A stretch of 64,000 nt of DNA. Origin: Clavelina lepadiformis. Lineage: Eukaryota; Chordata; Ascidiacea; Aplousobranchia; Clavelinidae. A model generated the notes under the pieces. The model made no database searches. It saw only the letters and a program-made list of their open reading frames with translations, and was not told the DNA's origin. The position numbers and the translations under genes are program-made. Positions 13,910-56,543 of this stretch are shown here, one piece after another; the first letter of the stretch is position 1; every line of letters starts with the position of its first letter. The stretch is taken from contig NC_135241.1 in the NCBI RefSeq assembly GCF_947623445.1, forward strand, positions 2,234,501-2,298,500, read 5' to 3'.

Positions 13910-13961
13910 ATGGTCCATTGGTTCATGAGATGTCCATGTTTCTGTTGCAAACGACTTAGAC
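13910..13961 (+). CDS. Candidate alternative first exon of mini-gene A (cysteine-rich N-terminus)
   Basis: ATG 13910 opens MVHWFMRCPCFCCKRLR and meets donor GTAAAC at 13962 in phase 1, the phase of every other first exon in the family. Spliced to the 15021 exon it stays in frame (split codon CTG). An ATAAAAAT box lies about 40 bp upstream. The CPCFCCK cluster followed by basic residues is the kind of N-terminus that can be palmitoylated, but that is inference. Unspliced, the frame stops after 22 codons. Confidence 0.35.
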
Positions 13962-14113
13962 GTAAACGAAGCAGTTGAGAATTTAACTATGTGTAACGTC
14001 CACTATAAATGTTTACAGCAGAAAGATTAAAGGTGTAAATAATCTCTGATCAGATGCGCTAAACGCTCTGGTAAGTTCAAAGTTTTCAAAGAAAAAATCT
14101 TCCATCACTATTA

Positions 14114-17100
14114 ATGATGGCACAACCACCAAGCGGTAAGTTTATATATGATTTTGATATTAACCACTAGATATTTTATAAAGTTTTTAACATCAGTATG
14201 TTTTGAGATTACATCAGAAGAATAAAAATTTCTACGCAAAATTATAATTAATTAAACGTGACACTTTATGGTCACAAATTTTCAAAGCGGTAGGCCTACA
14301 TACAAAGTTTCTTCTTGTTTATCTTGATAATATTAATAATTTCTCAGTCGAATAACTTATGCTCTATAGCAGGGGTTCCCAACCTTTTTATGTTCTCGTA
14401 CCACTTAGCCACCACGGATTGTCAACACGTACCACTATTTTCAAAACAACTAATTTGATCCAATATTCGCACAGCAGCATTGTATTAATAACAATGACAG
14501 CAGGGAGCAAGATCGATAAAAGTAGCTTACTGAGCGCAGAGAATTTAGTACGGAAAGAAATAAAAGTGTTGTTCGCATATTTTAGCAACTCAAAATTAAA
14601 TTGTTATACTACTATACTGTATATCGCATGCAACGGAGAGCTGCTCGCGTACCACCTGAAAAGCTCCCGCGTACCACCGGTTGGGAACCCCTGCTCTATA
14701 GCATAATTTTGTAAACTTTAAAAGAATTTATGAAAATAAAATTTAGATAATTCTGATTAGAAATGACCGCAAGTTATAAAACTAGTTCTTGTGAAACGCT
14801 GTAGGTGAGGATAAAGGCCAAAAGAACGCGATCCACTCAAAATTACATTACTTGCTTTTAGTTCAAAAGCAATGTTTGACTAAATTTTGAAAAAAAATTT
14901 TGCAAACACATTTTGAGTGTGGAAAAATGTAAAAATAAAAAATAATTTAAAATTATTTAAATAAGTTAAATAAAAACAATAGCAAATAAAAAAGCTGTTT
15001 TAGTATCAGATAAAAGTTAGTGAACCACTTGGATGGTAAAGAACTTGTTCGAATGTTGAAGTATGATGACTGTGCGGACCGCATTGAGATGTATATGCGC
15101 ATCATCAACGGTGATTCAAACGAGAATAAAGGTAAAAATAAACTAAGTAAAATCATTTTGAAAAATGAAAACTAAAACTAATTGATACTTTTATGTTATT
15201 TTTTCTATTTCATAAACCTAAATTCTTCTTTTTAATTTTTTATTAGAAAAAACTTTAACTAGACATTTCCACGGGATTGCTTCAGAATATACTGCCAAAT
15301 TTAAAAAAGATGGAAAAGATTGTTTGATCAAAGGTCATGAAGATGATTTTGCTGAAGCTCTCAGCAAAGATCGAACATCTTCTTCTTTCGTATGAGGTCG
15401 GCTCAAGCATATTCGGCTACCAATTGCAGCCATCTCTTCCCTTCCTCGTCAGGGGTCTTTAGGTCGTCTTGGCCTATGGGTGGGTGCAGGACACGGCATT
15501 CGAAGAGGATATGTTCTGCTGTTTGTGATTCTGCACCGCATATGCATGATGATGATGTTTTAAGGCCCCAGCGGTGCATGCATTCGCCAAAACGACCTAC
15601 TCCAGTTCTGAGGCGGTTCAGGGTTGTCCAGGCCTTTCGGGGAAGGTCAGCGCCAGCAGGGGTAGTGGTGGAGGGCTCCACATTAAACTGGGGGGGGGGG
15701 GGGGCGGGACACTTCTTTCCAGTCGTCGCACCATGCAGTGTTGATGTTGAAGCCGGCGGCCACAAGTGCAGCAGCATGTCTGCTAAAGGGGCGGCGAGAA
15801 ACCAGCCGCTGACGGCCACCGTGGGTTTGGCCGCCCAGGGTTGCGTGTAAGGGATGGTTGATGCTATCCATGGCTTGGCATGCAATCTTGTGAGTTGCTT
15901 GTGCTCTTCGATGTTTGGAAGGGGCGATGCCTGCCAGCACCGGCGCATAAACGCAACAGGAGTGGGACGGAGGCAGCCAGTAATGATCCTGAGGGTCTCA
16001 TTTAAGGTGGTGTCCAGTTTCTTTGCATGTACACTTCTACACCAGACTGGAGCAGCGTACTCCGCAGCACTGTGAACAATCGCAAGCGCTGCTGTACGAA
16101 GGGTGGAGGTGCATGCACCCCATGAGGATCCAACCAGACATCTTAAAAGGTTGTTTCTTGCCGATATCTTGCTTCGGAGGGCTGTATTATGTGGTTTATA
16201 CGTTAGCTGGCGGTCCAGTGTCACTCCAAGGTACCGTGGTTGTTGGCTGTTAGGCAGTACAGTCCCGTTCAGTTGGATAGCTAACTGGCGGTTCGCCTCC
16301 CGGTTGTTGAGGTGGAACGCGGTAGTTGTTGTTTTTGCCAGGCTCAACTTTAATCTCCATTTTTCAAGAAAGTCTGCGATGTTCTGCATGTCCTTTGTCA
16401 GGGTCTCTTCCACGTTATTCCAGTTTGTGTTGGCGTAGAGAAGAGCCAGGTCGTCTGCGTAGCCATACTGGTGTGATGTTGTTTGTGGCAAGTCGCTGAT
16501 GTAGATGTTGAAAAGCATTGGCGACAAGGTAGAGCCCTGGGGTACGCCATTTTTCAGCCGCCGCAGGCGGCTGTTTTGTCCATCACTGGTCTTGAGGGTG
16601 AAACTGCGGTTGGACAAGATGTTAGTAATGAAACGCACTAGGTGTCGGTCAGGGATCATCCGAAGGAGTTTGAGGGTTAGGCCTTGCTGCCACACGGTGT
16701 CATAGGCAGCAGTGAGGTCCACCAAAACAACACCCGCTTTCTGTTTTCGCTCGAAGCAGTCCTCGATGTTGTCGGTGAGCTTCAGTACCTGCTGGACTGT
16801 CGATCTTCCCCGTCGGAATCCAGCCTGTTGTTGTGGAAGCTGCGGGTCAACGACAGGGTCAAGGCGGGCCAGCAGGAGCCTCTCCATGACTTTGTAGGGG
16901 ACACAAAGTAGGGAGATGGGACGGTAACTCTTGGGGTTGTCTTTGGGTTTGTTAGGCTTTAGCAAGGCAATAACATTGGCCCTGCGCCAAATCTTCGGGA
17001 TCGCCATGCGGCAGAGGCAGGATGAGAATAGGTTGTTGAGCCATGTTTGACATTTGGGTCCACACTGTTTGAGGAACTCTGGGGGGATGTTATCCGGTCC

Positions 17101-18584
17101 TTGGGCTTTCCCATTCTTCAGCTGCTTGATAGCACTGGAGAGCTCCTGGGTGGTGAATGGCGTGGAAAGATGTCCGTCCGGTCCAGGTGCCTTCCACAGT
17201 GTACTGCATTCCTGCTTTACTTTACGTGTATGGTTCTTGTCTGCATTGCTGAAACGGCCATTGGCAAGGAGCTGACCGGCTATGCAATTAGCTGTGATCG
17301 GGCATGGTTTTGACTGAGCGTTCCGTCCAGTGAGGTGGTTAAAGGTCTTCCACGCTTTTCTGCTGGAATGCGTAAAATACATGTCCTTTACAGTATCCTC
17401 CCATCGCTTCTTACGTTTTTTGTCGAGGCAGTTTAGCAGGTCTGTAGCCTTGGAAGCAGCATCTCTAGGTTGCTCGGCACTCACGAATGCGTCATAGTTG
17501 TTATTACATTCATCATCCCATGCGGGGATGTAGTGTTGACGCCGGCGACGTGGTATGGTCTTCTTTGCAGCGTCAGTGAGTAGTTGGCAGAATGCAGAGT
17601 AGGCTGCATTCAGGTTGGCCGAGGTGGGGTCTGGTAGCTTTTCAGATCCAGACTCAACCAGTCGAGTGTATCGTTGCCAGTTGGCTTTCCGGAAGTTCCA
17701 TCTTTTGACTGGTTTTGTTTTCAGAGGTTCAATTGGATTCGTTGGTTTTATTAGTGATGGTCTGTGTTGGGATCTTGGGAATTTATCCAAAATAATACGT
17801 CTCGGGGTAGGTCCAGTGTTGAGGTTTGCAAAAGCCAGGTCAGGGTTGGAGGTGGTGTTCCATCTGCCTGAGCAGAAACTGCCTGGCTGTTTGGGGTCAA
17901 ACAAAAGGTGGACATCGGAGGCCGAAGCCCATTCTTCAAGTGCTGTGCCGTCATGGTTTATAGCGCTGTAGCCCCAGATAATGCTGTGGCAGTTGAAATC
18001 GCCAGCATAGATGCATGGGCTGCTAAAGGTGGGGATGGAATTTTTAAGCAGCCTCGCAGGGGGCGGTTTGTGGACATTCATGACATTAACGCCTTCCACC
18101 TCTACAGCCGTCCATTCTGTTTCGGAGTTAGCAGCACATGTTGCCATGTGTTTCCATTTGGCTGATTGCTTCACAAATGTTGCTGTGCCATGAATTGCGC
18201 TCTCGGTATGGGCAGCCAGGGTGTATCCGGCAATCTTGAGGCGGGATGTATCCATTACATGGGTTTCTTGTAGGAGGATGGTGGTGGCTTTGTGGGTGCT
18301 CACAAGGTGTTCCAAGATGTTGATTTTGGCTTTTGTGAGACCTTCAACATTCAGCTGTAGCAACGTGACACCTTCCCGTACGGCAGTTCTAGCTGCCTGC
18401 CCTAATGAGGACACATGCTTCGGGTCAGTATTAGGTTGCTTGGGCTGAGATCGCATTTTTCTAGGTAGCTTGATTGCTTGTTTGCTTTTCTCAGGTTGTT
18501 GATATTAGCCTGACATACGTCAGTTTCCAGGATTCACCACGGGGAGGTCATCAACTTGAATCGAACATCAACTATGCAAACAAT
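14114..18584 (+). CDS. DCX-like mini-gene A, split by a LINE
   Basis: Member of the local mini-gene family. Exons: 14114-14135 (MMAQPPS-), 15021-15131 and 15247 onward. Exon 2 reads LDGKELVRMLKYDDCADR, then IEMYMRII. Exon 3 reads EKTLTRHFHGIASEY, KFKKDGKDC, then EDDFAEALSKDRTS. Introns are phase 1. The closest relative is mini-gene F (shared MIKFDNFADRLE / MLKYDDCADRIE and DDL/DDF elements). A LINE inserted antisense in exon 3 at the duplicated ATCGAACATC (15370-15379 and 18560-18569). Read across the empty site, the exon would end after DRTSTMQTMG at TAG. With the LINE present, the frame instead ends at TGA 15393-15395 (DRTSSSFV). Intron 1 carries a hAT MITE. The beta-grasp reading is inference; the family membership is well supported. 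Confidence 0.68.
14370..14693. mobile_element. hAT-type MITE in mini-gene A intron 1
   Basis: Perfect 15-bp terminal inverted repeats CAGGGGTTCCCAACC are flanked by an exact 8-bp target duplication CTCTATAG (14362-14369 and 14694-14701). The length is 324 bp with no transposase. The exact duplication implies a relatively recent insertion. Confidence 0.93.
15380..18559 (-). mobile_element. Near-intact non-LTR retrotransposon (LINE, APE endonuclease type)
   Basis: About 3.18 kb between copies of a 10-bp target duplication ATCGAACATC (15370-15379, 18560-18569). It has a ~103-bp 5' leader, one long open frame and a very short 3' end finishing in a GAA-rich tail (reverse complement GAAAGAAGAA). 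There is no separate ORF1, so it either belongs to a single-ORF lineage or is slightly 5'-truncated. The uninterrupted 1017-codon frame and exact duplication point to a young, possibly active copy. It lies antisense inside exon 3 of mini-gene A. Confidence 0.93.
15403..18456 (-). CDS. LINE endonuclease/reverse transcriptase polyprotein, 1017 aa
   Basis: N-terminal apurinic-like endonuclease (about residues 30-235): QLNVEGL, LLQETH, YAGDFNCHS, then SNPDLAF-type sequence and SQHRP, which carry the expected acidic, Asn and His catalytic positions. Reverse transcriptase (about 430-730): GPDNIPPEFLK, YRPISLL, QAGFRRGRSTVQQ, motif A VDLTAAYDTVW, motif B NGVPQGSTLSP, motif C GYADDLALLY and YLGVTLDRQLTY. 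The C-terminus has a CICG...H...C zinc-knuckle-like segment (CGAESQTAEHILFEC). No RNase H domain was seen. The overall look is of the jockey superfamily, but the clade is not fixed. A run of 14 G at about 15690-15703 (poly-Pro in the protein) is in frame. The first ATG (18456) is used. Confidence 0.93.
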   Translation of the reverse strand: MRSQPKQPNTDPKHVSSLGQAARTAVREGVTLLQLNVEGLTKAKINILEHLVSTHKATTILLQETHVMDTSRLKIAGYTLAAHTESAIHGTATFVKQSAKWKHMATCAANSETEWTAVEVEGVNVMNVHKPPPARLLKNSIPTFSSPCIYAGDFNCHSIIWGYSAINHDGTALEEWASASDVHLLFDPKQPGSFCSGRWNTTSNPDLAFANLNTGPTPRRIILDKFPRSQHRPSLIKPTNPIEPLKTKPVKRWNFRKANWQRYTRLVESGSEKLPDPTSANLNAAYSAFCQLLTDAAKKTIPRRRRQHYIPAWDDECNNNYDAFVSAEQPRDAASKATDLLNCLDKKRKKRWEDTVKDMYFTHSSRKAWKTFNHLTGRNAQSKPCPITANCIAGQLLANGRFSNADKNHTRKVKQECSTLWKAPGPDGHLSTPFTTQELSSAIKQLKNGKAQGPDNIPPEFLKQCGPKCQTWLNNLFSSCLCRMAIPKIWRRANVIALLKPNKPKDNPKSYRPISLLCVPYKVMERLLLARLDPVVDPQLPQQQAGFRRGRSTVQQVLKLTDNIEDCFERKQKAGVVLVDLTAAYDTVWQQGLTLKLLRMIPDRHLVRFITNILSNRSFTLKTSDGQNSRLRRLKNGVPQGSTLSPMLFNIYISDLPQTTSHQYGYADDLALLYANTNWNNVEETLTKDMQNIADFLEKWRLKLSLAKTTTTAFHLNNREANRQLAIQLNGTVLPNSQQPRYLGVTLDRQLTYKPHNTALRSKISARNNLLRCLVGSSWGACTSTLRTAALAIVHSAAEYAAPVWCRSVHAKKLDTTLNETLRIITGCLRPTPVAFMRRCWQASPLPNIEEHKQLTRLHAKPWIASTIPYTQPWAAKPTVAVSGWFLAAPLADMLLHLWPPASTSTLHGATTGKKCPAPPPPQFNVEPSTTTPAGADLPRKAWTTLNRLRTGVGRFGECMHRWGLKTSSSCICGAESQTAEHILFECRVLHPPIGQDDLKTPDEEGKRWLQLVAEYA

Positions 18585-18738
18585 GGGTTAGCTTTGTTTT
18601 AGAAACGTTGAAGGTGTCAAAATATCAAATATGAAACTTTTTATTCTGCAACAGCACTGAAAAATAAACTTATAGAAAGGCAGCAATTCATATAATAAAA
18701 CTTTTTCTACACACGCAACAGCCATTTCATATATCCAG

Positions 18739-25201: not shown

Positions 25202-25662
25202 ATGGCCCTTTTCAGTAAGTTTGCTAATTGAACAAGGTAATACTTGAATAGTGGCTACCAATAATTAATGAATGTTAATTTTTACCAGTTCTTGACGGAG
25301 GAAAGTTTCGAAAACTTGACAAAGATTCTTTTCCACCAACAAAAGACTTAGTTCATTTCTTAAAAGCGGAGTTTCGTCGTGAGAGTAAGTTTGTTCGCTG
25401 GCTCATATATCGACAAATGTTTAAATACACAGCATCAAGCGTGGAATTAAAAGATCGATTTTCAGATGCAACGTTGACAAACCTGCACTATTACTTATTC
25501 ACTGATATATCCAAAGAATGGCCAGTGCAAGGCAACGAAAAGACCATCAGCAATTACTTAGAGATGGGTAAAGAAGTGTGTATCTGCGTATATCATTCCA
25601 CCTATTGGAATCTATTTATGGACAAAATTACTTCCAGAAACTCAAAATCCAAATACTTGTAG
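25202..25662 (+). CDS. DCX-like mini-gene E
   Basis: Exons: 25202-25214 (MALF-), 25289-25384 and 25466-25662, with GTAAGT donors, CAG acceptors and phase-1 introns. Exon 2 (96 nt, the same length as in D and D') reads ILDGGKFRKLDKDSF, then TKDLVHFLKAEFRRE. Exon 3 reads NATLTNLHYYLFTDIS, then EKTISNYLEMGKEV and a hydrophobic-aromatic strand, and ends with a longer basic tail (SRNSKSKYL). It aligns to C and D at DGG, at the LVHFL/LSGFL helix and at the L..G turn. Intron 2 is 81 nt, a multiple of three without stops, so it reads through as a long frame. AATAAA-type signals follow from about 25808. Role unknown. Confidence 0.72.
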
Positions 25663-28220: not shown

Positions 28221-28249
28221 GATGTTGTATTTGGAAATATTTGGTAATA

Positions 28250-32320: not shown

Positions 32321-32324
32321 AGAG

Positions 32325-33645
32325 CGCAACAAACATTATTTGGCAACCAAAGCTTTCACAGACGCTTGTTTTAGCAGATCCAGGAATTCCAGATGTTCAT
32401 ATTCCGTTCTACTAGACGCTTGCTTCCGTTATTGCCAATTGAAAATAATTGTAAAAAAACAAAGCATTGAACCATGTTAAAGCGTGAATTTATACAATAT
32501 GCTTAGTGGTTTTAATGTAATTAAATAAAACACAAAACCTAACATTGGCATTTTAGATATGATAGTTAATGCGCAACCAAGTTTCAATTGAACATGTGAT
32601 TTAAATTTGAGTAATCAAAGCCTTTAGATACCGGTATATTGGTTTTAACGGTAATGCTTATAACGATCGTTTTCTCCACATGGTGTTAAGCACAGATTTT
32701 GAAAGAAAGTTTTAATTCTTAAAATATAAAAAGCATATGGGCTTTATGAAAGGAATTACTCCTAAATTCAACAAGCAAATGATACATTAAATACATGTAT
32801 CCAAGGGGTGTGTTAATAAAATTTTGAAATTTGTCGTACAAACATTTGAAAAAAGCTTTGATGTAATTTTCAATTATGCAGATATACCTTTAGAACAAAC
32901 AAAAAGATTGTGCATTGTATAAAATTTTGCAGCAATAAATCAAAGTAATTTAAAAGCATAATCATATTTTCCTGCAACAAAATATCAAAAGTATGTTGGC
33001 AACATACTTACCCTAGAGATGTATACCAAATTACTAAATAAGTGTTTATGCTTTTCATATTTACGAAACTCTACGCGTATTGGATCTGTATTTCTAAACG
33101 TAAGCTCACAACAAAGTATCATTGGCAAACTAGGGTTCCACAGATGCTTGTTATAATTGAACGACGATTTGCCGATGAATAAACAGTAACATGTCATCCT
33201 GGCACGACGCTTGTTCCTGCTTTTGTCATTTTGGTCGTCCGAGAAATACAAAGCTTTGGAACATACTCTGGGCTGGGTTCTTAAACAAAAGCTGGTGTAA
33301 GTGAAATTAATCAGAAATCGCTTGAGAAGAAATTTTATAAAGCTTTATACCAGAGTAGTACAAAGCTTTTAAACGACTGATGGTTTGCATTGTCAAACGC
33401 GAGTATTTTCTAATCTGTGTGGTTTAATTAAAACAACTTTATCCAAAGTGAGTTAAGAATCTACAGCAAAGAGTTTTTGCATTTTTGCAAAAACTGCGGA
33501 ATATAAAAGTTTGAAGTTTTTAACCACAAAAATCGGACAGTTATGAACTATTGTGTTTTTTTCAGTCGAATACTTTATACAGTGAACTGTAAGATATGCG
33601 AAAAGGAAAGAATGAAAATATTAATATAAAGGCAATTGTTAAACG
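32325..33645 (+). repeat. Chimeric duplicate R1 (X-start joined to Z)
   Basis: 32325-32985 matches 38747-39400 (the 5' flank of mini-gene D). 32988-33645 matches 41505-42165 (unit Z, the 5' flank of D'). In R1 the TATAAAA box is kept (32918-32924), but the position of the start codon of D reads ATA (CAACAAAATATC versus CAACAAAATGTC). Sequence then jumps directly into Z. R1 is therefore a mini-gene promoter copy without its gene. Confidence 0.75.
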
Positions 33646-33991
33646 TCTAAAAATGATATCAACACTGCCAACAACGAAATAATAAATATTATCTCAATAA
33701 AAGAACTTATTGGCCATATCAGGCTGTAATCGTTCTGTTAAAGTACAGGATTTACACGCAAGAGGATTTTTTGGAACTACAAAATTAAGCAAAAATGATA
33801 TTTATTGTTATTGTTCTGAAATAACTATATGAGCCCAGTTTTTCTTTGGTGTATAGCGAGAATGCTTGAACCACTCATTTGAAACAGCTTTATATAATGC
33901 AGTCAAATTTATAAGGGGAAAGCAAAATAGATTTTTCGTTTCTTGTCTTATCCCTGACAATTACTGTATCGTGTAGACTTTCTACAAGACA

Positions 33992-35004
33992 ATGCCACTA
34001 TATGGTAAGTATGGTTAAAGTGTTGAAGCTCCATCTGAAAAGGTACAAACCTTTCTGTAAAATTTATTAAAATTTACAATTTATAATAAATAAAATTTTT
34101 ACTTATATAAAGAAAACAAGAGCTAAAACAGCATAAAGCATAACCAACTGATTATGTTTCTTTTATACTAAAGGAGTTATAAATGTCACATTACCGTTGA
34201 TTCTCTGTTACGGGGATTCTCAACCAGCAGTGGGCAGCTGGTGGGTCATTGAGCATTTTTAGGTGGGCCAAAGAGCTTTTATCAAATCTTAGTCCTTTCC
34301 TTTATTTCAGATGATATATTTCAAAATTTTGATCTTGTTTTGACATTAAACCTGAGAAAGACATTAATCTGAAAAGTAAATAATCAAGTTAAACTAGTAG
34401 TTTTACTAGTCAGTCCTTTCAATATAAATAATAATTCCATAACCCGTTTATAAGAAGAACCTTGAAAAGTGCACCAAACAATAATTTACAGAACAAAAGT
34501 GGGCCACGACTGTAAAAATATGAGAAACCCTGCTTGGTGCATTAAAGATAGTTGTAGTTTCAACCGAAACGTCTGAATAATAAAATGATTTCTACTGTTT
34601 TGGTTATTGTGTTCGTTATAAAAGTGAGTCGTAATTCTCAACATTTTGCTCGTAATATTTTAATAGTTATTGACGGGAATCAGCAAATAAATGTCCCCAT
34701 ACACGACGTTTTTGGGCATAGCAAAAACCTGTGTCAACATTTAAAGGGCTACTTCAGCAATTCAAGTAAGAATACAAATCAAAATTATAAAATAATCTTT
34801 GAAATTGCAAAATCAAACCTGTTTTTAACGCATAAACGAAACCTTACAGGTGCAACGTTGGACAACATGTATTATAGCAAATGTTCCGATAAAAGCAATG
34901 CAGTGAAGGTGAATGGTAATGAAGATGGAATTATTACGTTCTTGAATGGTGGTGAAATCTATGTCTTTGTTAAATCAGGGTGGTGGTGGTGCTCTATTTT
35001 GTAA
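33992..35004 (+). CDS. DCX-like mini-gene C
   Basis: Exons: 33992-34004 (MPLY-, donor GTAAGT), 34667-34765 (acceptor TAATAG, donor GTAAGA) and 34850-35004 (acceptor TTACAG, stop TAA). Both introns are phase 1. Exon 2: VIDGNQQINVPIHDVF, then NLCQHLKGYF. Exon 3: SATLDNMYYSKCSDKS, then EDGIITFLNGGEIYVFVKSG and a Trp-rich end (WWWCSIL). It aligns residue by residue with D (NASSNKLFYS / SATLDNMYYS). An 84-nt intron 2 is in frame without stops, so an unspliced frame from 34585 also stays open. That start lies in intron 1 and I consider it spurious. Intron 1 holds a MITE. Product about 88 aa, predicted cytosolic. Confidence 0.75.
34211..34532. mobile_element. Degraded hAT-like MITE in mini-gene C intron 1
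   Basis: Left end CGGGGATTCTCA and inverted right end CAGGGTTTCTCA. The inside has GTGGGC motifs near both ends. No convincing 8-bp duplication survives, so it is older than the 14370 copy. Confidence 0.55.
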
Positions 35005-35634: not shown

Positions 35635-35810
35635 CTGCAAGCAACCTCTTAAGCCGATATAGTTTCTCATTTAGTAAATATCATGACCGGCAACTGCAAG
35701 GCAACAAAGACAACATTATCGCCGAATTGGAAAACGGTCGTAATATCTACATTTTCGTACAAGGTTCGCTGCTGAAGGATTCTATTTTGTTTTGTTGTTT
35801 TTTATGGTAA
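35635..35810 (+). pseudogene. Orphan third exon of a DCX-like mini-gene (J)
   Basis: After acceptor AAACGCAG the frame reads AASNLLSRYSFSFSKY, then KDNIIAELENGRNIYIFVQG and a hydrophobic Cys tail to TAA 35808-35810. It matches exon 3 of D (ENDIIERLHDGSPIYIYVAG). The preceding ~60 bp also resemble the end of intron 2 of D. I cannot find exon 1 or 2 in the 600 bp upstream, so it is probably a truncated copy. Splicing from the upstream gene C cannot be excluded. Confidence 0.6.
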
Positions 35811-36939
35811 AATATCTTTCGTCGCTATTTTGTTATTTTTCACTCAATAGAATAAAAACCAAAATAATGTACAAATGAATTTTTAACTCCAGTGTTTTGC
35901 TGCTCAAAAATTGTCATTTTTTCAAATTATGTCATACAAATTAGCACCATTTAAGAAAAATCGATTGGTTTGATAAATTACAATCATGTTATATTTAAGT
36001 GATTATGCTCTCATTAGAGCAGATTTCCAAAATAGGAAATCTTCAACTCTTTTTTTTATCATATTAAATATTAAATATTATCATATCGCGCTTTGCATAT
36101 TGCATCTCAAATGTAAGCCTTACACAGCATTTTCTACTTTAGTATAACTTGACTCTCAACCGGAAAGATTTTACATTTTGGGGGGAAATTGGACTGATCT
36201 TTTCGTGTAATATTTGCTGAATGAATGAGTCGGTGTGTAGCGCAAATTGTGGAATCGCTTTTTCATAATAGTAATTATCTATAGTCATACATAAAAGTAA
36301 CGAAGTGGTAGTTTGACGACAGATTTAAAATTGATATTTCAAGGATGTATACATAACTTTCCCTGGACTTTTAAACGTAGACACTTCTTTATTACGTTTT
36401 AATCTACGTTTTATTACATTATTTTTTACGTTTCTTTTTACTTAAATTTAATACAAAACCGTTGATACAAAATGATTCCATCATCCTGAACCTCTACAAA
36501 TATTATCTAATAAATATTTTCACAACATCCCACCGCTTTTTTTATTGGGGAAAAACTTTTAAATTCCCCCACTAGACGTCTGAGGTTGCCCATCTAACTT
36601 CTTGTTTCTAATAGCAGGAAACTCAATGAACGTTTGTAACGAAAATAAAATAATACTGAATATAAATAAAATAATAGAATACTGAAAAGCCGAACGCTTG
36701 TTGGCGCCTTTAAGTAGTTTTTACATATAACAAGCGTAATAACATGCTTTAGCATAATTTTTTTTTATACTTTTAATTTAATCCAAATTTTATTATTGTT
36801 ACAAAATAGAATACTGTATAGATATAGATCAGTTAGCGTTATAATGCCGGTCCTGGTATCGGCAAGCGATCAATAACACACTGTTAACAGTGTAAGCTTC
36901 ATTAAATAATCACATCTGAAACGAAACAAGTTTTTCTGA

Positions 36940-37390
36940 TTATACAGTAGTTACAGTAGTTACAGTAGTTACAGCATTGCCTAAAAGGGCCATGCAAGCC
37001 ACGCTCAGATCAAACTCTTTCTTCGACTTCTTCTTTTTGCAAACCTTTGACTTCACCTCGGCCTTAATTCTTTCGACGGAAGAAAACAAACTGAGTAAAC
37101 CGTCAATAAATTGTATATTTATGTTTCGTAATGTCATTTGGTCAATCCAAACAAGTGAAACTTTTTGCCCAGAAAACGTCGTTGTTGTTGTTGTTCGTTG
37201 TTTGCTTGTTTCCAACGAAATAGAAAAAATCAAAAAGCTTACAACATAATTTTCTGCTGCGGCGCCAAGCCACGCAGCATTGACTGATGCGTGACAGATG
37301 ATTCTGTTGCCTTTGAAGTCGCAAGCACAAGAAAGAGCTGATGAAGGTCATGAAGCGCGTAAGAGTTTTATGACGATTTACGCTCAACAT
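36940..37390 (-). CDS. Overlapping minus-strand frames kept in both Y and Y', doubtful gene
   Basis: Two reading frames stay open in both duplicates: one starting MLSVNRHKT at 37390, with QNHLSRISQCCVAWRRSRK, and one starting MIFSISLET, with SLVWIDQMTLRNINIQF and a Lys-rich segment. The start context at 37390 resembles the TATA/ATG unit at 30567-30597. No known domain was recognised. Conservation may simply reflect recent duplication. Confidence 0.2.
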
Positions 37391-37907
37391 GACTGGCTCT
37401 TGACCTTTAAGCCTCGCTTTTTGTTTTTTAAATAGAACAGCAACGAACTTGGATTATCTGTGTTATGAGGAAGTGAAATTTTTTGGCTTAAACAATAGAA
37501 TCTGATTGTACTCTTCCATGGCACGCAATGAACATGATGATGCAATGGCATGCAAGTCTGAAAGTTACTTGAAAATAATTTGAAATTAAAGAAATCTGTT
37601 TTGTGTATCATGACGTCATTTGCGTTTTTGGAAAATTGTAATTTCAATTGATAGGATATGAAAAGAGACTTAAAGTAAATGATTAAATAAAGGAAATCAT
37701 GTTTTAGGGCATAAGTGAGAGAACTACCGATACTTAATTTGTGTACAGTAAATGCAACTTTTAGCGTTTTCGTTTACGATTATTTAGATTTGTGGATTTC
37801 TCAAATTAATTTTTTGCATCCCTACAAGTTTATCAATTTTATTGCAATATTAGCAGTTCATCATTGCAAGGCATAGTACACAACAATTCTACAGACAATT
37901 ATATGTT

Positions 37908-38294
37908 ATGGTTTCTATAAATGTTTTGATGACGGCACGTTTTATCCAGGGTTTAACTAAAAGCAATTTTGTCAAAAACATGAAAAAGGCTAAATCTATT
38001 GCGCAACAAGTCATACGACCCCTTGGTAGAAACATACGTTGCTGCAAGCTTCAAACAAACGTAAATTGCCCGGGAGATATTCCCCGGTGTTTTACCCATT
38101 TATATTTTCTCAACCCAAATCGTGACGATCTGCATACTTGTTATGACAACATGACGAAAGATCATTGGAGCGAAGGCGCCCCTAAAAGTCTTTCCATCTT
38201 CTGCTGCATTGATTTGTTCAACTTAAAACGTCATAAGCTAATCGTTAATACAAAATTTCAAATCAATGTTAGCTCACATTGTATGATATTATAG
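37908..38294 (+). pseudogene. 128-codon open frame in Y, broken in Y'
   Basis: Reads MVSINVLMTARFIQGLTKSN, then a KNMKKAKSIAQQVIRPLGR segment and a Cys-containing C-terminal half. In Y' (from about 45580) the same region has a one-base insertion and in-frame stops, so there is no sign of constraint. The sub-block CTTGTTATGACAACATGACG (38137) recurs at about 45803 and, diverged, near 46490 and 48745, upstream of mini-genes F and G. It is probably flanking DNA rather than a gene. Confidence 0.3.
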
Positions 38295-38561
38295 TTGACC
38301 TAAAGCAAATAGCTTTGAAAGAAAAGCATTGCTTTAAAACGCGCACATCTAATGTATTGATAAATAATTTGTGCAATCATATATACGCATAGAGTATAGT
38401 GTAAAAATATTTTACTTATAGTTGTTTTTAAATAAATTTCTTAGTGTTTTGTCTTTATAATTTGAGTAATACAATTGGTTAATTCAAATTAAAGTAATAA
38501 ATACACTGTACATAATCAGGTTACGCATAAATCAATTTAGTAAAGCTTTTGACTTGGACAG

Positions 38562-38716
38562 AAAAGTTCTTAAATCGTGAATATTGGCCCGTTTACGGCG
38601 TAAGTTTTAAAGAAATTAATCATCATGCCGAAAACACGAAAAACGCTAAACTCATGCATTACGCAAGAAATCATGAAACCCCTGTGTTTATCAACTTCAA
38701 AAATAACTCATGGTGA
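38562..38716 (+). pseudogene. Orphan third exon L in unit Y, prematurely stopped
   Basis: After acceptor TTGGACAG the frame reads KFLNREYWPVYGVSFKE, then AKLMHYARNHETPVF, ending TCA TGG TGA. The Y' partner (46232-46404) reads on for another six codons. The pattern (aromatic-S strand, helix, G/N turn, VF strand, Trp) fits the third exon of the family, but weakly. No first or second exon was found nearby. Confidence 0.4.
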
Positions 38717-38746
38717 TGCGCAAGCAGGTTTTAGTCAAGCGTAAAA

Positions 38747-39400
38747 TGAGAGCGCAACAAACATTATTTGGCAACCAAAGCTTTCACAGACGCTTGTTTT
38801 AACACAACCAGGATTTCTCAATGTTCTACAAGACGCTTGCTTCCGTTATTGCCAATTGGGAATAAATGTACAAAACCAAAGCATTGAACCATGTTAAAGC
38901 GTGAATTTGTACAATATGCTTAGTGTTTTTAATATAATTAAATAAAAGTTAAAACCTCACATTGGCATTTGAGATATGATAGTTAATGCGCAACAAAGTT
39001 TCAATCGAACATGTAATTTAAATTTGAGTAATCAAAGGCTTTAAATACCGGTATATTGGTTTCAACAGTAGCGCTTATAATGATCGGTTTCTCCGCATGG
39101 TGTTTAGCACAAATTTTAAAAGAGAGTTTTAATTCTTAAAATATAAAAAGCATATGTACTTTATGAAGGGAATTACTCCTAAATTCAACAAGCAAATGAT
39201 ATATTAAGTACATGTATCCAAGGGGTGTGTCAATAAAATTTTGAAATTTGTCGTACAAACATTTGAAAAAAGCTTTGATGTAATTTTCAATTATGCAGAT
39301 ATACATTTAGAACAAACACAAAGATTGTGCATCATATAAAATTTTCCAGCAAGAAATCGAAGTAATTTAAAAATATATTCATATTTTCCTGCAACAAAAT
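38747..39400 (+). repeat. 5' flank of mini-gene D, duplicated in R1 (32325-32985); includes upstream block U5
   Basis: Contains paired GACGCTTG motifs (CACAGACGCTTGTT and AGACGCTTGCTTCCGTTATTG about 50 bp apart), then about 500 bp leading to the TATA box. The high match to R1 includes the TATA box, up to the start codon. Confidence 0.75.
39335..39341 (+). promoter_or_regulatory. TATA box of mini-gene D
   Basis: TATAAAA lies 64 bp before the start codon, predicting a ~30-nt 5' leader. It is conserved at the same distance in D' (TATAAGA, 42291-42297) and in the gene-less copy R1 (32918-32924). Confidence 0.55.
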
Positions 39401-39944
39401 GTCACTTTGGAGTAAGTATGAATTACAAATGAAGTCTGTGTCCTTAATTTAAATTTCTTATTTAATATTTATTATTTATTAGTTCCGCACAACATGTTAA
39501 CATGAATTGTTGCTTCATAAACATTAATTTTCATATATTTCAGTTTTCGATGGAGGTCAACATAAATTAGTTTCAATAAGTAATGTGACCCGAGCCGGAA
39601 ACTTGTCTGGATTTTTAGCAAGAGAGTTTGTAAATGAAAGTGAGACTTGTTTAATCAGCAACTTTTCTATTAAATAGAGATTTACACAAATTTATTTTCA
39701 AGTTATAACTTAGTAACCGTTACTTTTTGTATCAACTTTCCTTGTTCTGTTTTGACTTAAGTCAAAATGCTCTTTAGATGCATCTTCGAACAAACTCTTT
39801 TATAGTCACTCCTCGGACATGTCTCAGGGAAGACCGGTGACAAACAACGAAAACGATATTATCGAGAGGTTACATGACGGAAGTCCTATTTACATTTACG
39901 TAGCAGGGAAGTGGGCGAGGAATTGGTATTCATTTTTTGGCTGA
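39399..39944 (+). CDS. DCX-like mini-gene D
   Basis: Exons: 39399-39411 (MSLW-), 39544-39639 and 39778-39944, phase-1 introns, stop TGA 39942-39944; 91 aa. Exon 2: IFDGGQHKLVSISNVT, then NLSGFLAREFVNE. Exon 3: NASSNKLFYSHSSDMSQG, RPVTNNENDIIERLHDG, SPIYIYVAGKW and an aromatic tail. The layout (DG turn, V/I strand, L..FL helix, LFYS strand, D-I..L..DG, IYIYV strand) is what a single doublecortin-type domain shows, at about its usual 80-90 residues. This is a by-eye assignment, not a profile match. There is no signal peptide, so it is likely intracellular. D' is a recent duplicate whose exon 3 is strongly diverged. Confidence 0.78.
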
Positions 39945-40523
39945 TAAACTTACCGTTATTTTCTTTTTCAATTTACTGTAAGCAAAATTAGTTGGGGATT
40001 GAAAGAAATTTTATACACGTTTTTACTGTTATAGCAAAATAACCTGATGGAACTATAACCAAAAATACTTCAATATGTACCGTTTGAAGTAATAAAAATC
40101 CTTTTCTTACTTTCAATACAAATAATTGCCGTACCACTTTATGCTTTATGTCTTTTGAACTATGTTATCATTAGCTATGAAGGTTTGCAATTTTCCTTTC
40201 CGAACCAGTATACCAAAAAAGCAGAACACTTGTCAGCGTATCTTTAAGCAAGTTGTGCATGCCAAATCAAACATCAAGTCAAGGTTCTAATTTTTTTTAA
40301 TTAATTTTATTTGTAGTTCATTCAAATTAATTCAAACGTTAATTCAAATTAACGTCAATAATGAAATAATTTTGAAGTATTCATTACTCTGTCTCTTGTT
40401 ATTAATTATATTACCGTTTGGTGTTTTAACAAATAATAATGAATACAAAATATTATAAATTTCTATTCGTGTACTAACTTTACAGTGCAGTACAAAGCCA
40501 ACAGTGAATGAGGCTTTTTTTAA

Positions 40524-40657
40524 CTAAGTTTTATCGGTCCTATTAATACAAGCGTTACGTGAAGCGTAAGTATCTAGGCCGGGTCTGTAGCTCCTTTCAG
40601 GGCAAACCACCAAACCAAATTCACACTTGAGTGCTGGTGAGAACTTATATTTAAATA
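40524..40657 (-). CDS. Candidate minus-strand terminal exon conserved in X and X'
   Basis: The reverse strand has acceptor TGTGCAG followed by a frame reading FKYKFSPALKCEFGLVVC, then ERSYRPGLDTYA and CIN to TAG (40526-40524). The X' copy (43441-43562) keeps the frame with substitutions and a small deletion. Upstream sequence in frame is hydrophobic. The three Cys suggest a secreted peptide, but no first exon was fixed and the evidence is only duplicate conservation. Confidence 0.25.
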
Positions 40658-40905
40658 CTGCACACAAAATAGTCTTTGACTTAAAGTAAAAATTTAGAAG
40701 AGGAACGATCGCTAAAAGCATAGAGTAGAAAAAACGCCCTGTCACAACACTCACTAACGACTAACCGAACTGAATGTCTAGATCAGGAAAACGCCGAGAA
40801 TTCAATATAATCAGTAGGGACAAGAAAAGCTGGCATGATAATTGGGAGGCTCGGGAATCAAAATGAGACCAAAACACAAACAATACAACCTTACAAGAAA
40901 CACAA

Positions 40906-42165: not shown

Positions 42166-42353
42166 TGTCACTAAAAGGAGCGTGTCACTAAAATTTGGAA
42201 ATTTGTCGTACAAAAATTTGAAAAAAGCTTTTATGTAATTTTCAATTATGCAGAAAAACATTTAGAACAAGCACAAAAGATTGTTCATTGTATAAGATTT
42301 TGCAGCAATAAATCAAGTACTTTAAACACATCTTCATATTTTCCTGCAACAAA

Positions 42354-42886
42354 ATGCCACTTCGGAGTAAGTATGAATTACAAATGAAGTCTGTGTCCTT
42401 GATTTAAATTTCCTATTTAATTCCGCAGAACAAGTTAACAAGAATTATTGTTTCTTCATAAACATTAATTTTAATATATTTCAGTTTTCGATGGAGGTCA
42501 ACATAAATTAGTTTCAATAAGTAATGTGACCCGAGCCGGAAACTTGTCTGGATTTTTAGCAAGAGAGTTTGTAAATGAAAGTGAGACTTGTTTACTCAGC
42601 AACTTTTCTATTACATAGAAATTTAGACAAATTCATTTTCAAGTTATAACTTAGTAACCGTTACTTTTTTGTATCAACTTTCCTTGTTCTGTTTTGACTT
42701 AAGTCAAAATGCTCTTTAGACGCATCTTCGAACGAACTCTTTTATAGTCTCTCCTCGGATATGTCTCAGGGAAGACCGGTGAAAAACAACGAAAACGATA
42801 TTTTCAAGAAGTTACATGACGGAAGTCCTATTTACGTTTATGTAGCAGGGATACTGGCGAGGATATGGTATTCAATTTTTGGTTGA
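42354..42886 (+). CDS. DCX-like mini-gene D' (duplicate of D)
   Basis: Exons: 42354-42366 (MPLR-), 42485-42580 and 42720-42886; 91 aa, phases as in D. Exon 2 is identical to D over all 96 nt. Exon 3 differs at 18 of 167 nt, changing 11 amino acids with 4 silent codons: LFYSLSSD for LFYSHSSD, NDIFKKLHDG for NDIIERLHDG, YVYVAGIL for YIYVAGKW. Intron 2 differs at about 5 substitutions and 1 indel in 138. A TATA-like box lies at 42291. The intact frame with such exon-specific change suggests that both copies are used. Confidence 0.77.
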
Positions 42887-43440
42887 AAAACTTATCGTTA
42901 TTTTCTTTTTCAATTTACTGTAAGCAAAATAAGTTGCGGATTGAAGGAAATTTTATACACGTTTTTACTGTTATAGCAAAATAACCTGATGGAACTATAA
43001 CTAAAAATACTTCTATATGTACCGTTTGACGTAATAAAAATCCTTTTCTTACTTTCAATACAAATAATTGCTGTACCACCTTATGCCTTATGTCTTTTAA
43101 ACTATATGTTATCATTAGTTCGGAAGGTTTGCAATTTTCTTTCCGAACCAGTATACTAAAAACGCAGAACACTTGTCAGCATATCTTTAAGCAAGTTGTG
43201 CATGCCAAATCAAACACCAAGTCAAGGATCTATTTTTTTTAAATTAATTTTATTTGTAGTTATCAAATTAACGTTAATAATGAAATACTTTTGAAGTATT
43301 CATCAGTCTGTCTCTTGTTATTAATTAATATCGTTTGTTGTTTTAAGAAATAATAATGAATACAAAATATTATAGATTTCTATTTGTGTACTAACTTTAC
43401 AGTTCAGTACAAAGCCAACAGTGAATAAGGCTTTTTTCAG

Positions 43441-43562
43441 CTAAATTTTTTCGGTCCCATTAATACAAGCGTAAGTATCTAGGCCGGGTCTGTAGCTCCT
43501 TTCACGGCAAACCGCCACACCAAATTCACACTTGAGTGCTGGTGAAAACTTATATTTAAAAA
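43441..43562 (-). CDS. X' copy of the minus-strand candidate exon
   Basis: Reads FKYKFSPALKCEFGVAVC, then ERSYRPGLDTYACINGTEK to TAG after acceptor TTGTGCAG. See the 40524-40657 copy. The frame is conserved despite a deletion of a few codons, which is mild support for coding. Confidence 0.25.
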
Positions 43563-43811
43563 CTGCACAAAAAATAGACGTCGACTTAAAGTTAAAATTG
43601 AGAAGAGGAACGATCACTAAAAGCATAGAGCAGAGAAAACGCCTTGTCACAACACTCACTAACGACTAACCGAACTGAATGTCTAGATCAGGAAAACGCC
43701 GAGAATTCAATACAATCAGAAGGAACAAGAAAAGCTGGCATCATAATTGGGAGGCGCGGAAATCAAAATGAGACCATAACACAAACAATACAACATTACA
43801 AGAAACACATT

Positions 43812-46420
43812 TGGACTGAACTTTTCGTGTAATGTTTGCTTACTGAATGAATCTGCGTGTAGGGCAAAATTTGCTATTGCTTTTTCATAATAGTAATTAT
43901 CTATAGTCATACACAAAAAGTAACGAAGTGGTAGTTTGATGACAGATTCAAAATTTATATTTCGAGGATGTAAACATAACTTTCCCTAACATTTGAACGT
44001 AGACTCTTCTTTATTACGGTTTAATCCACGTTTTATTACGTTACTTTTTACGTTTCTTATTACTTAAATTTAATACAAAACCGTTGATACAAAATTATTC
44101 CATCATCCTAAACCTCTACAAATATAATAAATAATTTCACAACATCCCATTGCTTTCCTTTATTGGAAAAAAACTTTTAAATTCCGGCACTAGATGTCTG
44201 AGGTTGCCCATCTAACTTCTTTTTCTAATAGCAGCAAACTCCATGAAGGTTATTGTACTGTAGCAAACGCAATATTCAAGAAGAGAAAGCGTTTGTAACG
44301 GAAATAATTTGAGAAGAATACTGAAAAGCCGAACGCTTATTGGCATCTTTAAGCAGTTTCTACATATAACAAGGGTAATAACATGCTTTAGCATAATTTT
44401 TTTGTTTATACTTTTAATTTTATTCAAATTTTATTATTGTTAAAAAATAGAATACTGTATAGATATAGGTCAGTTGGCGTTATAACGCCGGTCCTGGTAT
44501 CGGCAAGCGATCAATAACACACTGTTAACAGGGTGAGGTTCATTAAATAATCACATCTGAAACGAAACAAGTTTTTCTGATTATACAGTAGTTACGATTA
44601 AAGTTATATAAAAGATAAAGGTTTCAATAAACATATATTGCCTAAAAGGGCCATGCAAGCCACGCTCAGATCAAACTTTTTCTTCGACGTCTTCTTTTTG
44701 CAAACCTTTGACTTCACCGCGGCCTTAATTCTTTCGACGGAAAGAAACAAACCGAGTAAACCGTCAATAAATTGTATATTTATGTTTCGTAATGTCATTT
44801 GGTCAATTGAAACAAGTGAAACTTTTTGCCCAGAAAATTTCGTGGTTGTTGCTGTTCGTTGTTTGCTTGTTTCCAACGAAATAGAAAAAATCAAAAAGCT
44901 TACAACATAATTTTCTGCTGCGGCGCCAAGCCACGCAGCATTGACTGATGCGTGACAGATGATTCTGTTGCCTTTGAAGTCGCAAGCGCGAGAAAGAGCT
45001 GATGAAGGTCATGAAGCGCGTAAGAGTTTTATGACAATTTACTCTCAACATGACTGGCTCTTGACCTTTAAGCCTCGCTTTTTGTTTTATAAATAGAACA
45101 GCAACGAACTTCAATTATCTGTGTTATGAGGAAGTGAAATTTTTTGGCTTAAACAATAGAATCTGATTGTACTCTTCCATGGCACGCAATGAAAACGATG
45201 ATGCAATGGCACGCAAGTCTGAAAGTTACTTGAAAATAATTTGAAATTAAAAAAATCTGTTTGTGTAATATGTATCATGACGTCATTTGCGTTCTTGGAA
45301 AATTGTAATTTCAATTTACAGGATATGAAAAGTGACTTAAAGCAAATGATTAAATAAAGGAAATCATGTTTTAGGGAATAAGCGAGAGAACTACCGATAC
45401 TTAATTCGTGTACAGTAAATGCAACTTTTAGCGTTTTCGTTTACCATTATTTAGATTTGTGGATTTCTCAAATAAATTTTTTGCACCCCTACAGGTTTAT
45501 CAATTTTATTGCAATATTAGCAGTTCATCATTGCAACGCATAATACACAACAATTATACAGACAATTATATGTTATAATTTCTATAAATGTTTTGATGAC
45601 GGCACGTTTTATCCAGGGTTTAACTAAAAGCAGCTTTGTCAAAAAACATGAAAAAAGCTAAATCTATTGCGCAACAAGTCATAAGACCCCTTGGTAGAAA
45701 CATACGTTGATGCAAGCTTCAAACAAACGTAAATTGCCCGGGAGATATACCCCGGTGTTTTACCCATTTATATTTTCTCAACCAAAACCGTGACGACCTG
45801 TATACTTGTTATGACAACATGACGAAAGATCTTTAGAGCGATGGCGCCCCTGAAAGTCTTTCCATCTTCTGCTGCATTGATTTGTTCAACTTAAAACGTC
45901 ATAAGCTAATCGTTAATACAAAATTTCAAATCAATGTTAGCTCACATTGTATGATATTATAGTTGACCTAAAGCAAATAGCTTTGAAAGAAAAGCATTGC
46001 TTTAAAACGCGCACATCTAATGTATTGATAAATAATTTGTGCAATCATATATACGCATATAGAGTATAGTGTAAAAATATTTTACTTATAGTTGTTTTTA
46101 AATAAATTTCTTAGTGTTTTGTCTTTATAATTTGAGTAATACAATTGGTTAATTCAAATTAAAGTAATAAATACACTGTACATAATCAGGTTACGCATAA
46201 ATCAATTTAGTAAAGCTTTTGACTTGGACAGAAAAGTTCTTAAATCGTGAATATTCGCCCGTTTACGGCGTAAGTTTTAAAGAAATTAATCATCATGCCG
46301 AAAACACGAAAAACGCTAAACTAATGCATTACGCAAGAAATCATGAAACCCCTGTGTTTAGCAACTTCAAAAATAATTTATGGAGATGCGCAAGCAGGTT
46401 TTAGTCAAGCGTAAAATGCT
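43812..46420 (+). repeat. Segmental duplicate unit Y'
   Basis: Partner of 36190-38730. Sequence starts after the X' break and runs collinearly to the end of the orphan exon L' (46404). From there it turns into the unique flank of mini-gene F. Confidence 0.88.
46232..46404 (+). pseudogene. Orphan third exon L' in unit Y'
   Basis: Acceptor TTGGACAG, then KFLNREYSPVYGVSFKE, NAKLMHYARNHETPVFSNF, NNLWRC to TAG 46402-46404. It is longer than the copy in Y, which stops earlier. Pattern similarity to the third exon of the family is modest. No partner exons were found, so it is likely non-functional unless spliced from elsewhere. Confidence 0.42.
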
Positions 46421-46908: not shown

Positions 46909-47923
46909 ATGTCTCGTTTCTTTGGTAAGTGCTTCCCATAACAAGGCTTGCTTTTAAACGAATATTAAAAACGTTCTACAATAACTAATTACTTAACGCA
47001 GTTTTCAACGGTTACAAAACTGATGGTGTAGATTCTCAAACTATCGCGAAAATGATCAAATTTGACAACTTTGCTGATCGGTTGGAGGCTTACGTGCTGA
47101 GAAAGTTGACTTCAGTTCAAGGTATGTTAAATTTAAATACAAAAAGGTAAGCAGTTACCAATAGCTGTAACTATTTCGCGCTAACACTTCAACTCCGTCA
47201 CTTCATAACAAAAGAAGGAATCACGAAAGGAGAAACAAAAGAGGAATTATGCTCGCTTTAGAGCAAAGTTATCCTGTCTTCTGCTTTGAATGTCATCTGT
47301 CATGCAGAAAAATTAAAGATTAATCAAGTTTAATTGACTGTTTGGTTAAGACTTTTGAACGTTATATCAAACCAGTCGGAAAATTTCATCGACTTAATAC
47401 TTTGAGCTTTGCTCATATGTTTAGGTTATTAAATCTTCTGTCGCTGAGAAACATTTTCGTAGGAAAAGCTCAAACTTGCTTTATTAACTTGAGTCTCTGT
47501 AGATGTAAAATTTTTAACCGGCGGACAACAGTGGAATTTGTTGAAATGACAAATTATATCACTCCAATCAGATTAATATTTCCTGTCATGTTTAGCCTTG
47601 TATCCTGCTATATGCTTTGAGATACATACTTGGAATAACATGCTTACACCAAAGTAAAAGTTTGCTCTTCTTTATAAATTATAATTATAAATATTATAAT
47701 CTATAGGCTATAATATTTATTGTGACTGTTTATAGGAACAAAAGACCCTTTAAGCAAGAGGTTTTGGCAAACATTCGATGACTACGTTGTTTATTACAGT
47801 CTGTCAGTGGACCGACGCGATGGAAAACAAGTTGCCAGTCACATTGATGATCTTGAGAAATTTATTACTGACGGGCGGACAATTTATTTTTTTATTCCGA
47901 AAAGATTTCACAACACTGTTTAG
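46909..47923 (+). CDS. DCX-like mini-gene F
   Basis: Exons: 46909-46924 (MSRFF-), 47002-47121 and 47736-47923, all phase 1, with donors GTAAGT/GTATGT; 107 aa. Exon 2: VFNGYKTDGVDSQTIAKM, then IKFDNFADRLEAYVLRKL. Exon 3: GTKDPLSKRFWQTFDDY, VVYYSLSVDRRDGKQVA, SHIDDLEKFITDGRTIYFF and IPKRF. This member gives the clearest DCX look: an NG turn, a K-F-x-x-F-x-x-x-L helix, a YYS strand, DGKxV, IDDLExxxxDG, IYFF and a closing RF. A TATAAAC lies at 46883-46889, very close to the start. AATAAA occurs near 48085. Intact, likely functional. Confidence 0.8.
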
Positions 47924-49144: not shown

Positions 49145-50044
49145 ATGCCAGACGTTTACAGTAAGACAAACAACAGACATATGTCTCTGTCTAAGTTAAC
49201 TTCTTGCTGTAACAATTATGTTATAATTTCAGTTTACGATGGTACCAATAATGTCAAAGTGCCTGCATCAGAAGTGGCGCGGATGAGCAGACAAAATAAT
49301 TTCGGTGAGCGCTGGTTGGCGTCGTGGAGCCGCTTTATTTTTCTTTTGAACAAAGTTGTATCGATCCTCTCAGAAACTTGCAAACTACATGAAGCAAATT
49401 AGTGGACCGGCCCTAGGCCAATGCGAGTAACGCGATTGCGTTGGACCAAGCAGTCTTGGCGACCCCGAGATTTTATAGCACTAAAAGAAAAATAACAATT
49501 CAGTTTTCCATCTGCGCAATTCTGAGCGTTATTTCTCCATTTGTTCCAGAAAGATAATTTTATGGTGAGAATGCATCAAGAATCAAAGCTTTCATTGGAC
49601 CTGGTTGGCAAAGAGTTGATATTTGGTTTACGTTATTATTAAGTTATATAAATCAGCAAGGGGCTCGCTATACCGTACATCAGTTTTTGCATTTGGTCTC
49701 CCGTTTAATTAAGCCTGCCCTGGATGTTAGGGTAAATATTGTAAACTATTAACAAATACAACTCAATAACAGACATTGGGGAAGGAAACCAACATAATTT
49801 TCAGTGCTAAAAATCAAGTAATATTTAATGTGCATGATTTTAATTTTTTTTTAATTTATTATTTTTTGTTAAAGATTTTAAGGAATACAATTTGCTCGAA
49901 AACAACTTGCACTTCAGCCAGCAGTCTGACAGAAGTAATGGGATTCCACTTCAGAGTAACAAGGACGGACTGAGCAGAGCTCTGGATAATGGCAAGCCCG
50001 TGTTCTTGTATAAATCGCCCTCGAGTTCTTGTGTTGTTCAATAA
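49145..50044 (+). CDS. DCX-like mini-gene G
   Basis: Exons: 49145-49160 (MPDVY-), 49233-49304 (donor GTGAGC) and 49875-50044 (acceptor TTAAAG, stop TAA 50042-50044), phase-1 introns; about 85 aa. Exon 2 (72 nt, shorter than its relatives): IYDGTNNVKVPASEVARM. Exon 3: DFKEYNLLENNLHFSQQSD, then KDGLSRALDNGKPVFLYKS and a Ser-rich end. It aligns with D and N at the LHFS/LFYS strand and the L..G..VF.Y element. Intron 2 is 570 bp. A TTATGACAACATGACG block lies 400 bp upstream, as for F. Confidence 0.72.
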
Positions 50045-51060: not shown

Positions 51061-51076
51061 GCGCGGTTTTTCGTTT

Positions 51077-51083: not shown

Positions 51084-51114
51084 GCAGTTCGCAATTAGAC
51101 AAGACTTCGAAACA

Positions 51115-52740: not shown

Positions 52741-52744
52741 TCCT

Positions 52745-55140: not shown

Positions 55141-55141
55141 T

Positions 55142-55378: not shown

Positions 55379-55394
55379 CTGCACACGGATCACG

Positions 55395-56200: not shown

Positions 56201-56206
56201 TACATC

Positions 56207-56213
56207 TATAAAA
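56207..56213 (+). promoter_or_regulatory. TATA box of mini-gene N
   Basis: TATAAAA starts 34 bp before the start codon at 56241, a spacing close to that of gene H. Confidence 0.45.
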
Positions 56214-56240
56214 ATTTTATGAGTTGACCATTACTCAAAC

Positions 56241-56543
56241 ATGTCGTCGAAGCTTGCTTGTTGGACTTGGTTTACCAATTTTTTTGGATGTTTAAAGAAA
56301 GGTAAAGTAGCTGCGGCAAAGCAAATTATTAAGGTAGATTTTCGCTGAAGAAAAGAAAGTGAACCCTCTTGCAGCCTACTATTCGTGTAAGCACTATAAA
56401 TGTTCGTCGCAGATTCGACCAGAAGAATAAAATTTTCGTCCACTTCAGATAGGAAGCGGGCGAAGATGCTCGACGAATCGACCAGAAAAGAATTTGAAGA
56501 TCTTTTGGATTCGGATCGACCGATCTACTTTTTCGATCCTTAG
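56241..56543 (+). CDS. DCX-like mini-gene N (short form)
   Basis: Exons: 56241-56301 (MSSKLACWTWFTNFFGCLKK, donor GTAAAG, phase 1) and 56413-56543 (acceptor GTCGCAG, stop TAG 56541-56543); 63 aa. The last exon reads STRRIKFSSTSDRKRAK, then RKEFEDLLDSDRPIYFFDP. It lines up column by column with exon 3 of D (NKLFYSHSSD ... DIIERLHDGSPIYIYV). The first exon supplies the helix part (WFTNFFGCLKK) but lacks the usual DG turn, so either an exon is missing or the fold is truncated. Unspliced, the first frame stops after 35 codons. Confidence 0.6.

Follow-up and report, generated by a model that had tools for sequence, protein, structure and literature searches.

A local family of fast-diverging three-exon genes with a possible beta-grasp domain in the ascidian Clavelina lepadiformis

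Among the closest known systems to the small proteins described here is the PB1/OPCA domain (PF00564). By eye, the proteins also resemble the doublecortin domain (DCX, PF03607) in size and in having a DG/NG turn, a helix and a final L..G..Y strand, but their first hairpin is shorter and a few extra residues are found ahead of the final DG; furthermore, the gene models have phase-1 introns and lack both a tandem second domain and a partner domain. Locally duplicated, fast-evolving gene families such as the tunicate TNF superfamily (PMC12843592) are likewise reported to duplicate often and diverge strongly; the proteins of the present cluster are much smaller, consist of one domain and belong to no recognised family.

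The cluster is located in C2:2234501-2298500 on chromosome 2 of C. lepadiformis; this whole stretch of 64,000 nucleotides is referred to as the window, and all positions are counted from its first base. From the sequence we read six intact three-exon gene models on the plus strand between 25.2 and 50.0 kb (g25k, g34k, g39k, g42k, g47k, and g49k). Both introns are GT-AG and phase 1 in six of six models. The phase of intron 1 is no independent evidence, because phase 1 was built into the exon-1 search pattern, while the exon-2 lengths and exon-3 frames were unforced. The first exons are 13 or 16 nt long (encoded residues are given in the list below), exon 2 measures 96, 99, 96, 96, 120, and 72 nt in the order given above, every length being divisible by three, and carries [IV]-x-[DN]-G near its start, and exon 3 has a common motif and ends at the stop codon. 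The tiny first exon and the two phase-1 introns had been described in the first-pass annotation and hold in all six models. Intron 1 ranges from 72 to 662 nt and intron 2 from 81 to 614 nt. The predicted proteins are 85–107 residues long, show 16–33% identity to the first one and have no shared cysteine pattern. In g25k and g34k, intron 2 (25385-25465 and 34766-34849; 81 and 84 nt) is stop-free and divisible by three, possibly by chance, and its retention would therefore yield a longer open protein. The features of the cluster, with the evidence for each, are as follows.

25202..25214, plus strand: g25k exon 1 (MALF); gene model, exon-1 pattern
25289..25384, plus strand: g25k exon 2; gene model
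25466..25662, plus strand: g25k exon 3 with stop; left-out test E 0.0076, rank 1
33992..34004, plus strand: g34k exon 1 (MPLY); exon-1 pattern
34667..34765, plus strand: g34k exon 2; gene model
34850..35004, plus strand: g34k exon 3 with stop; left-out test E 9.4e-10
35635..35810 (start approximate), plus strand: orphan exon 3 with phase-1 acceptor and stop; left-out test E 1.2e-8
39399..39411, plus strand: g39k exon 1 (MSLW); exon-1 pattern
39544..39639, plus strand: g39k exon 2; gene model
39778..39944, plus strand: g39k exon 3 with stop; left-out test E 4.9e-10
42354..42366, plus strand: g42k exon 1 (MPLR); exon-1 pattern
42485..42580, plus strand: g42k exon 2, matching that of g39k at every base; gene model
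42720..42886, plus strand: g42k exon 3 with stop; left-out test E 1.5e-9
46909..46924, plus strand: g47k exon 1 (MSRFF); gene model, exon-1 pattern
47002..47121, plus strand: g47k exon 2; gene model
47736..47923, plus strand: g47k exon 3 with stop; left-out test E 1.1e-7
49145..49160, plus strand: g49k exon 1 (MPDVY); gene model, exon-1 pattern
49233..49304, plus strand: g49k exon 2 (short); gene model
49875..50044, plus strand: g49k exon 3 with stop; left-out test E 6.9e-12
14114..14135, plus strand: g14k possible exon 1; pattern only
15021..15131, plus strand: g14k exon 2, by eye like g47k exon 2
15247..15380 (end approximate), plus strand: g14k exon 3, with a LINE inserted shortly before its end
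56412..56543, plus strand: 56 kb copy, possible degenerate exon 3; left-out test E 0.92, rank 4, unconfirmed
36189..38748, plus strand: segmental duplicate of 43811-46418; 92.6% identical, self-comparison
39220..40904, plus strand: segmental duplicate of 42175-43809, bearing g39k/g42k; 89.7% identical, self-comparison
32321..33646, plus strand: mosaic duplicate of 38749-39404 and 41507-42166, holding the 5' relic 32803-32987; self-comparison

Exon 3 provides the best evidence of kinship. Profiles were built without one member at a time, the near-duplicates g39k and g42k being removed together, and searched against 5066 open reading frames of at least 25 aa from 204 kb, comprising the window and 70 kb on each side, which form the whole background of the test. 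Seven of the eight left-out exons were regained as the best untrained match (E 7e-12 to 0.0076); that of g42k ranked second, behind its near-duplicate g39k, which had also been left out. The 56 kb exon 3 failed (E 0.92, rank 4), and no exon 2 is visible by eye at this copy. The next-best untrained match in six of the eight runs, two of which are the same search, was exon 3 of a seventh gene, g14k, at E values that are not significant (0.12–0.34). The corresponding exon-2 test placed none of the six members among the best ten matches listed per run, and exon 2 is thus the less alike half among the older members. The case for exon-2 homology draws on position, on the phase of splicing and on the opening [IV]x[DN]G, and is much weaker than that for exon 3.

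The family is also local. Five single exon-3 queries were run against the whole assembly (209,060,895 bases in 95 contigs) at E up to 10, giving five matches for g39k and four for g49k, all in the window, three for g47k (two in the window), four for g34k (three in the window) and only itself for g25k. Ten of the 12 non-self matches thus fall within 0.03% of the genome; the near-duplicate scores E 5e-23, the other nine are weak (E 0.03–1.1) and partly reciprocal, their weight lying in where they cluster, and each of the two matches outside (E 0.46 and 0.54) contains an in-frame stop. With the exon-3 profile, no further convincing member was found in the 70 kb on either side; the flank matches at 82.6 kb and -52.4 kb (E 0.24–1.7) were dropped, having no clear acceptor by eye. 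A transposon origin was rejected because the exon-3 queries show no repeated copies elsewhere in the genome. Judged by these comparisons of sequence, the members have common ancestry and sit together, and within this genome the family is limited to a single part of chromosome 2. The cluster is a genuine small family of an evolutionary kind already known, and the local expansion, fast divergence and constant exon architecture proposed in the first-pass annotation are supported. In place of the eight or more genes and three orphan third exons counted there, six intact genes, a seventh that a LINE has broken (14–15 kb) and a single orphan (35.6 kb) can be defended; the frames at 38.6 and 46.3 kb are absent from the exon-3 profile list to E 20. 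The impression in the first-pass annotation that the cluster is undescribed agrees with the open-licence literature on ascidian or tunicate doublecortin and on fast-evolving tandem ascidian genes, where, at the level of titles and abstract beginnings, the family was not found.

Other genes and repeats share the window. Plus-strand exons at 87-464 and 911-1261 belong to an exosome subunit gene, which we take to be EXOSC5-like; their match to RNase_PH passes the cut-off and that to RNase_PH_C falls just short of it. At about 2000-7000 on the minus strand lies an ABC transporter gene, presumably of the ABCD type, whose exons match ABC_membrane_2 and ABC_tran. A tandem array of 4.7 copies of a 167-base unit occupies 60786-61605, with related units at 57.5–57.7 kb.

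Comparison of the window with itself revealed repeated duplication within the cluster. The paired segments are 36189-38748 and 43811-46418 (92.6%), 39220-40904 and 42175-43809 (89.7%), 32987-33646 and 41507-42166 (96.5%), and 32321-32987 and 38749-39404 (90.7%). Positions 32803-32987 are a relic of a g39k-type 5' region from a further copy (93.5%), and 59 bases over the start of the orphan exon 3 are 75% identical to the intron 2/exon 3 region of g39k. Exons 1 and 2 of this orphan were not seen. The mosaic duplications, the 5' relic and the orphan thus indicate that copies are being made and lost. The orphan lies ~630 bases downstream of g34k exon 3 with equal splice phase, so that g34k could use it as an alternative last exon. 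In the large segmental duplication (37854-38294 / about 45520-45960), one copy holds an open frame of 146 residues; for the other copy, the list of open reading frames has no plus-strand frame of at least 60 aa. In g14k (14–15 kb), a non-LTR retrotransposon (15403-18504, minus strand) cuts into the last part of exon 3. It has an uninterrupted endonuclease-reverse transcriptase frame of 1033 residues, an RVT_1 match at E 2e-38, endonuclease matches and the same ten bases on both flanks; the insertion is probably recent. A second non-LTR retrotransposon, at 27369-28315 on the minus strand, is broken, its RVT_1 and endonuclease fragments being split between two frames.

The youngest pair, g39k and g42k, differs at 0 of 96 positions in exon 2, 18 of 167 in exon 3 and 94 of 1352 in noncoding sequence. 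The exon-2 value is significantly low (Fisher p 0.0002 against exon 3, p 0.002 against noncoding sequence). Exon-3 divergence does not differ significantly from that of all noncoding sequence (p 0.08) and is higher than that of the introns (p 0.02), while its pN of 0.097 and pS of 0.135 give a pN/pS of about 0.7, near neutrality; with these values, positive selection on exon 3 is unsupported. Frame conservation was also sought in missing indels, but their number (0 in 276 coding bases, expected 2.0) is not significant (P 0.13). As read from the aligned bases, the pattern suggests that exon 2 is under constraint or gene conversion and exon 3 is little constrained; in a single pair, gene conversion could be the alternative cause of the exon-2 identity. 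The older members show the opposite trend, exon 2 being less alike than exon 3, and one pair cannot settle the matter.

The near-neutral exon 3 of this pair, together with the LINE in g14k, the orphan exon, the 5' relic and the 56 kb copy, is what one would expect of a dying family, once functional and now passively duplicated and drifting, in which the frames are intact only through the youth of the copies. We regard this as unlikely, although it deserves weight, since the six genes, at 16–33% identity to the first, have all kept the motif, the splice phases and an open frame, an outcome hardly expected under neutrality, and since exon 2 is unchanged between g39k and g42k.

Structure prediction gave two models from one alignment, both of low confidence (mean pLDDT 57.5 and 64.0) and both including 27–28 residues coded by intron 2. 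In each, strand-strand-helix precedes and strand-(strand)-helix-strand follows the intron-coded part, and the first strand starts in 3–5 residues coded by intron 1, not by exon 1; the first model has an extra intron-coded strand and no separate beta4. Neither model had a significant Foldseek match. For the first, 33 of the 50 listed matches were titled ubiquitin-like, SUMO, UBX, PB1 or Ras-binding (best E 0.39), the PB1 matches covering only its residues 50-111, with exon 2 outside; the second returned a mixed list (best E 2.2). The models suggest, but do not prove, the strand and helix order of the beta-grasp (ubiquitin-like) fold. The earlier proposal of some other ubiquitin-like beta-grasp protein is thus weakly supported. 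No DCX chain was named among the Foldseek or VIA matches listed, which excludes nothing.

The doublecortin type favoured by the first-pass annotation was not borne out by domain searches. At E up to 10, the six spliced proteins gave no DCX, PB1 or CIDE-N match in Pfam, in a search where the HMMER filters drop most weak matches; their only match, Methyltransf_8 (E 0.084), was judged to be chance. A profile search of PDB sequences returned no DCX, and its matches to purine repressor (E 0.37) and YIL161W (E 0.6) were likewise put down to chance. Two hand-made consensus sequences scanned against Pfam also gave no DCX, and Sterile (E 0.035) and Ras_bdg_2 (E 0.13) were both below the cut-offs. When the genome was searched with the Pfam profiles, none of 12 DCX, five PB1 and two CIDE-N places fell in the window.

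Direct profile-profile comparison was more favourable to DCX, which scored 14.8 locally against 9.0 for PB1 and 8.3 for CIDE-N. Neither of the latter gave a local signal, CIDE-N lying under the shuffle mean of 9.1. However, the DCX match spans 14 columns (last helix and strand) and is barely above shuffles: its local score was reached by 9/200 column shuffles for the whole profile, 5/200 for exon 3 and 17/200 for exon 2, and one shuffle scored 22.7. Global DCX scores were ordinary (44/200, 29/200 and 93/200, respectively), and in the global exon-3 comparison 14/199 shuffles scored as high for PB1 and 29/200 for DCX. Since 18 comparisons were made in all, these results are a hint only, and the likeness to DCX at the profile level appears marginal. 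True single-domain DCX relatives, split from a tandem DCX gene, would bind tubulin or DCX partners and tune the cytoskeleton. To the local score such a descent adds the resemblance seen by eye in the opening [IV]x[DN]G, in the helix and strand that follow and in the L-x-[DN]-G-x-x-[IV]-[YF] motif at the end, but we consider it improbable in view of the short match, the ordinary global scores and the negative Pfam, PDB-sequence and own-genome searches. Of the introns of DCX genes in this genome that could be read by eye, moreover, four are of phase 0 (two in L002 and one each in L003 and L048) and one is of phase 2 (L046), although intron position is not defining.

Cellular location bears on the remaining proposal, that the proteins are secreted or surface molecules for self/non-self or gamete recognition. 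Fast divergence and local expansion occur in some recognition families and are seen here, but only 4–5 residues precede the domain start in the models, leaving no room for a signal peptide. Neither signal peptide nor membrane segment is apparent in the first exons as read, and a shared cysteine pattern is lacking. We therefore take the proteins as cytosolic, and the recognition role suggested in the first-pass annotation seems very unlikely.

Our preferred reading, with a probability just short of one half (about 0.48), is that the genes form a local family under birth-and-death evolution and encode single-domain proteins, probably of beta-grasp fold, that serve as binding modules in the cytosol. 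The family would grow and decay through local duplication on one stretch of chromosome 2, each intact gene encoding a protein of 85–107 residues with little beyond one probable beta-grasp domain. Since one small domain and no evident catalytic motif are found, action by binding is most likely, and the protein, lacking an enzymatic site, would stay in the cytosol as a small adaptor or competitor. Exons 1 and 2, with the predicted first hairpin and helix, may carry the surface retained by recent copies, and exon 3, with the predicted other strands, second helix and tail, may drift freely and supply the differences between copies. The failure of the exon-2 profile to regain any of the six members makes for a poor fit with exon 2 as a fixed half among older members. 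A bolder version of the binding-module reading, which we offer as conjecture and hold to be rather improbable, is a new beta-grasp family, DCX-derived or independent, in which one domain is the whole gene and in which a kept first half and a variable exon 3 among recent copies would yield a set of small adaptors or competitors in the cytosol that have one docking face in common and differ in the second.

Poly-A RNA-seq of this species (ERR10908613, PMC10884593) and the assembly are public, and the main claims are thus easy to test. The cluster shows how a compact family can verge on the undetectable, with exon-level gene structure outlasting sequence. If the split in constraint between exon 2 and exon 3 holds in population data, it would be a natural case of a two-speed small domain.
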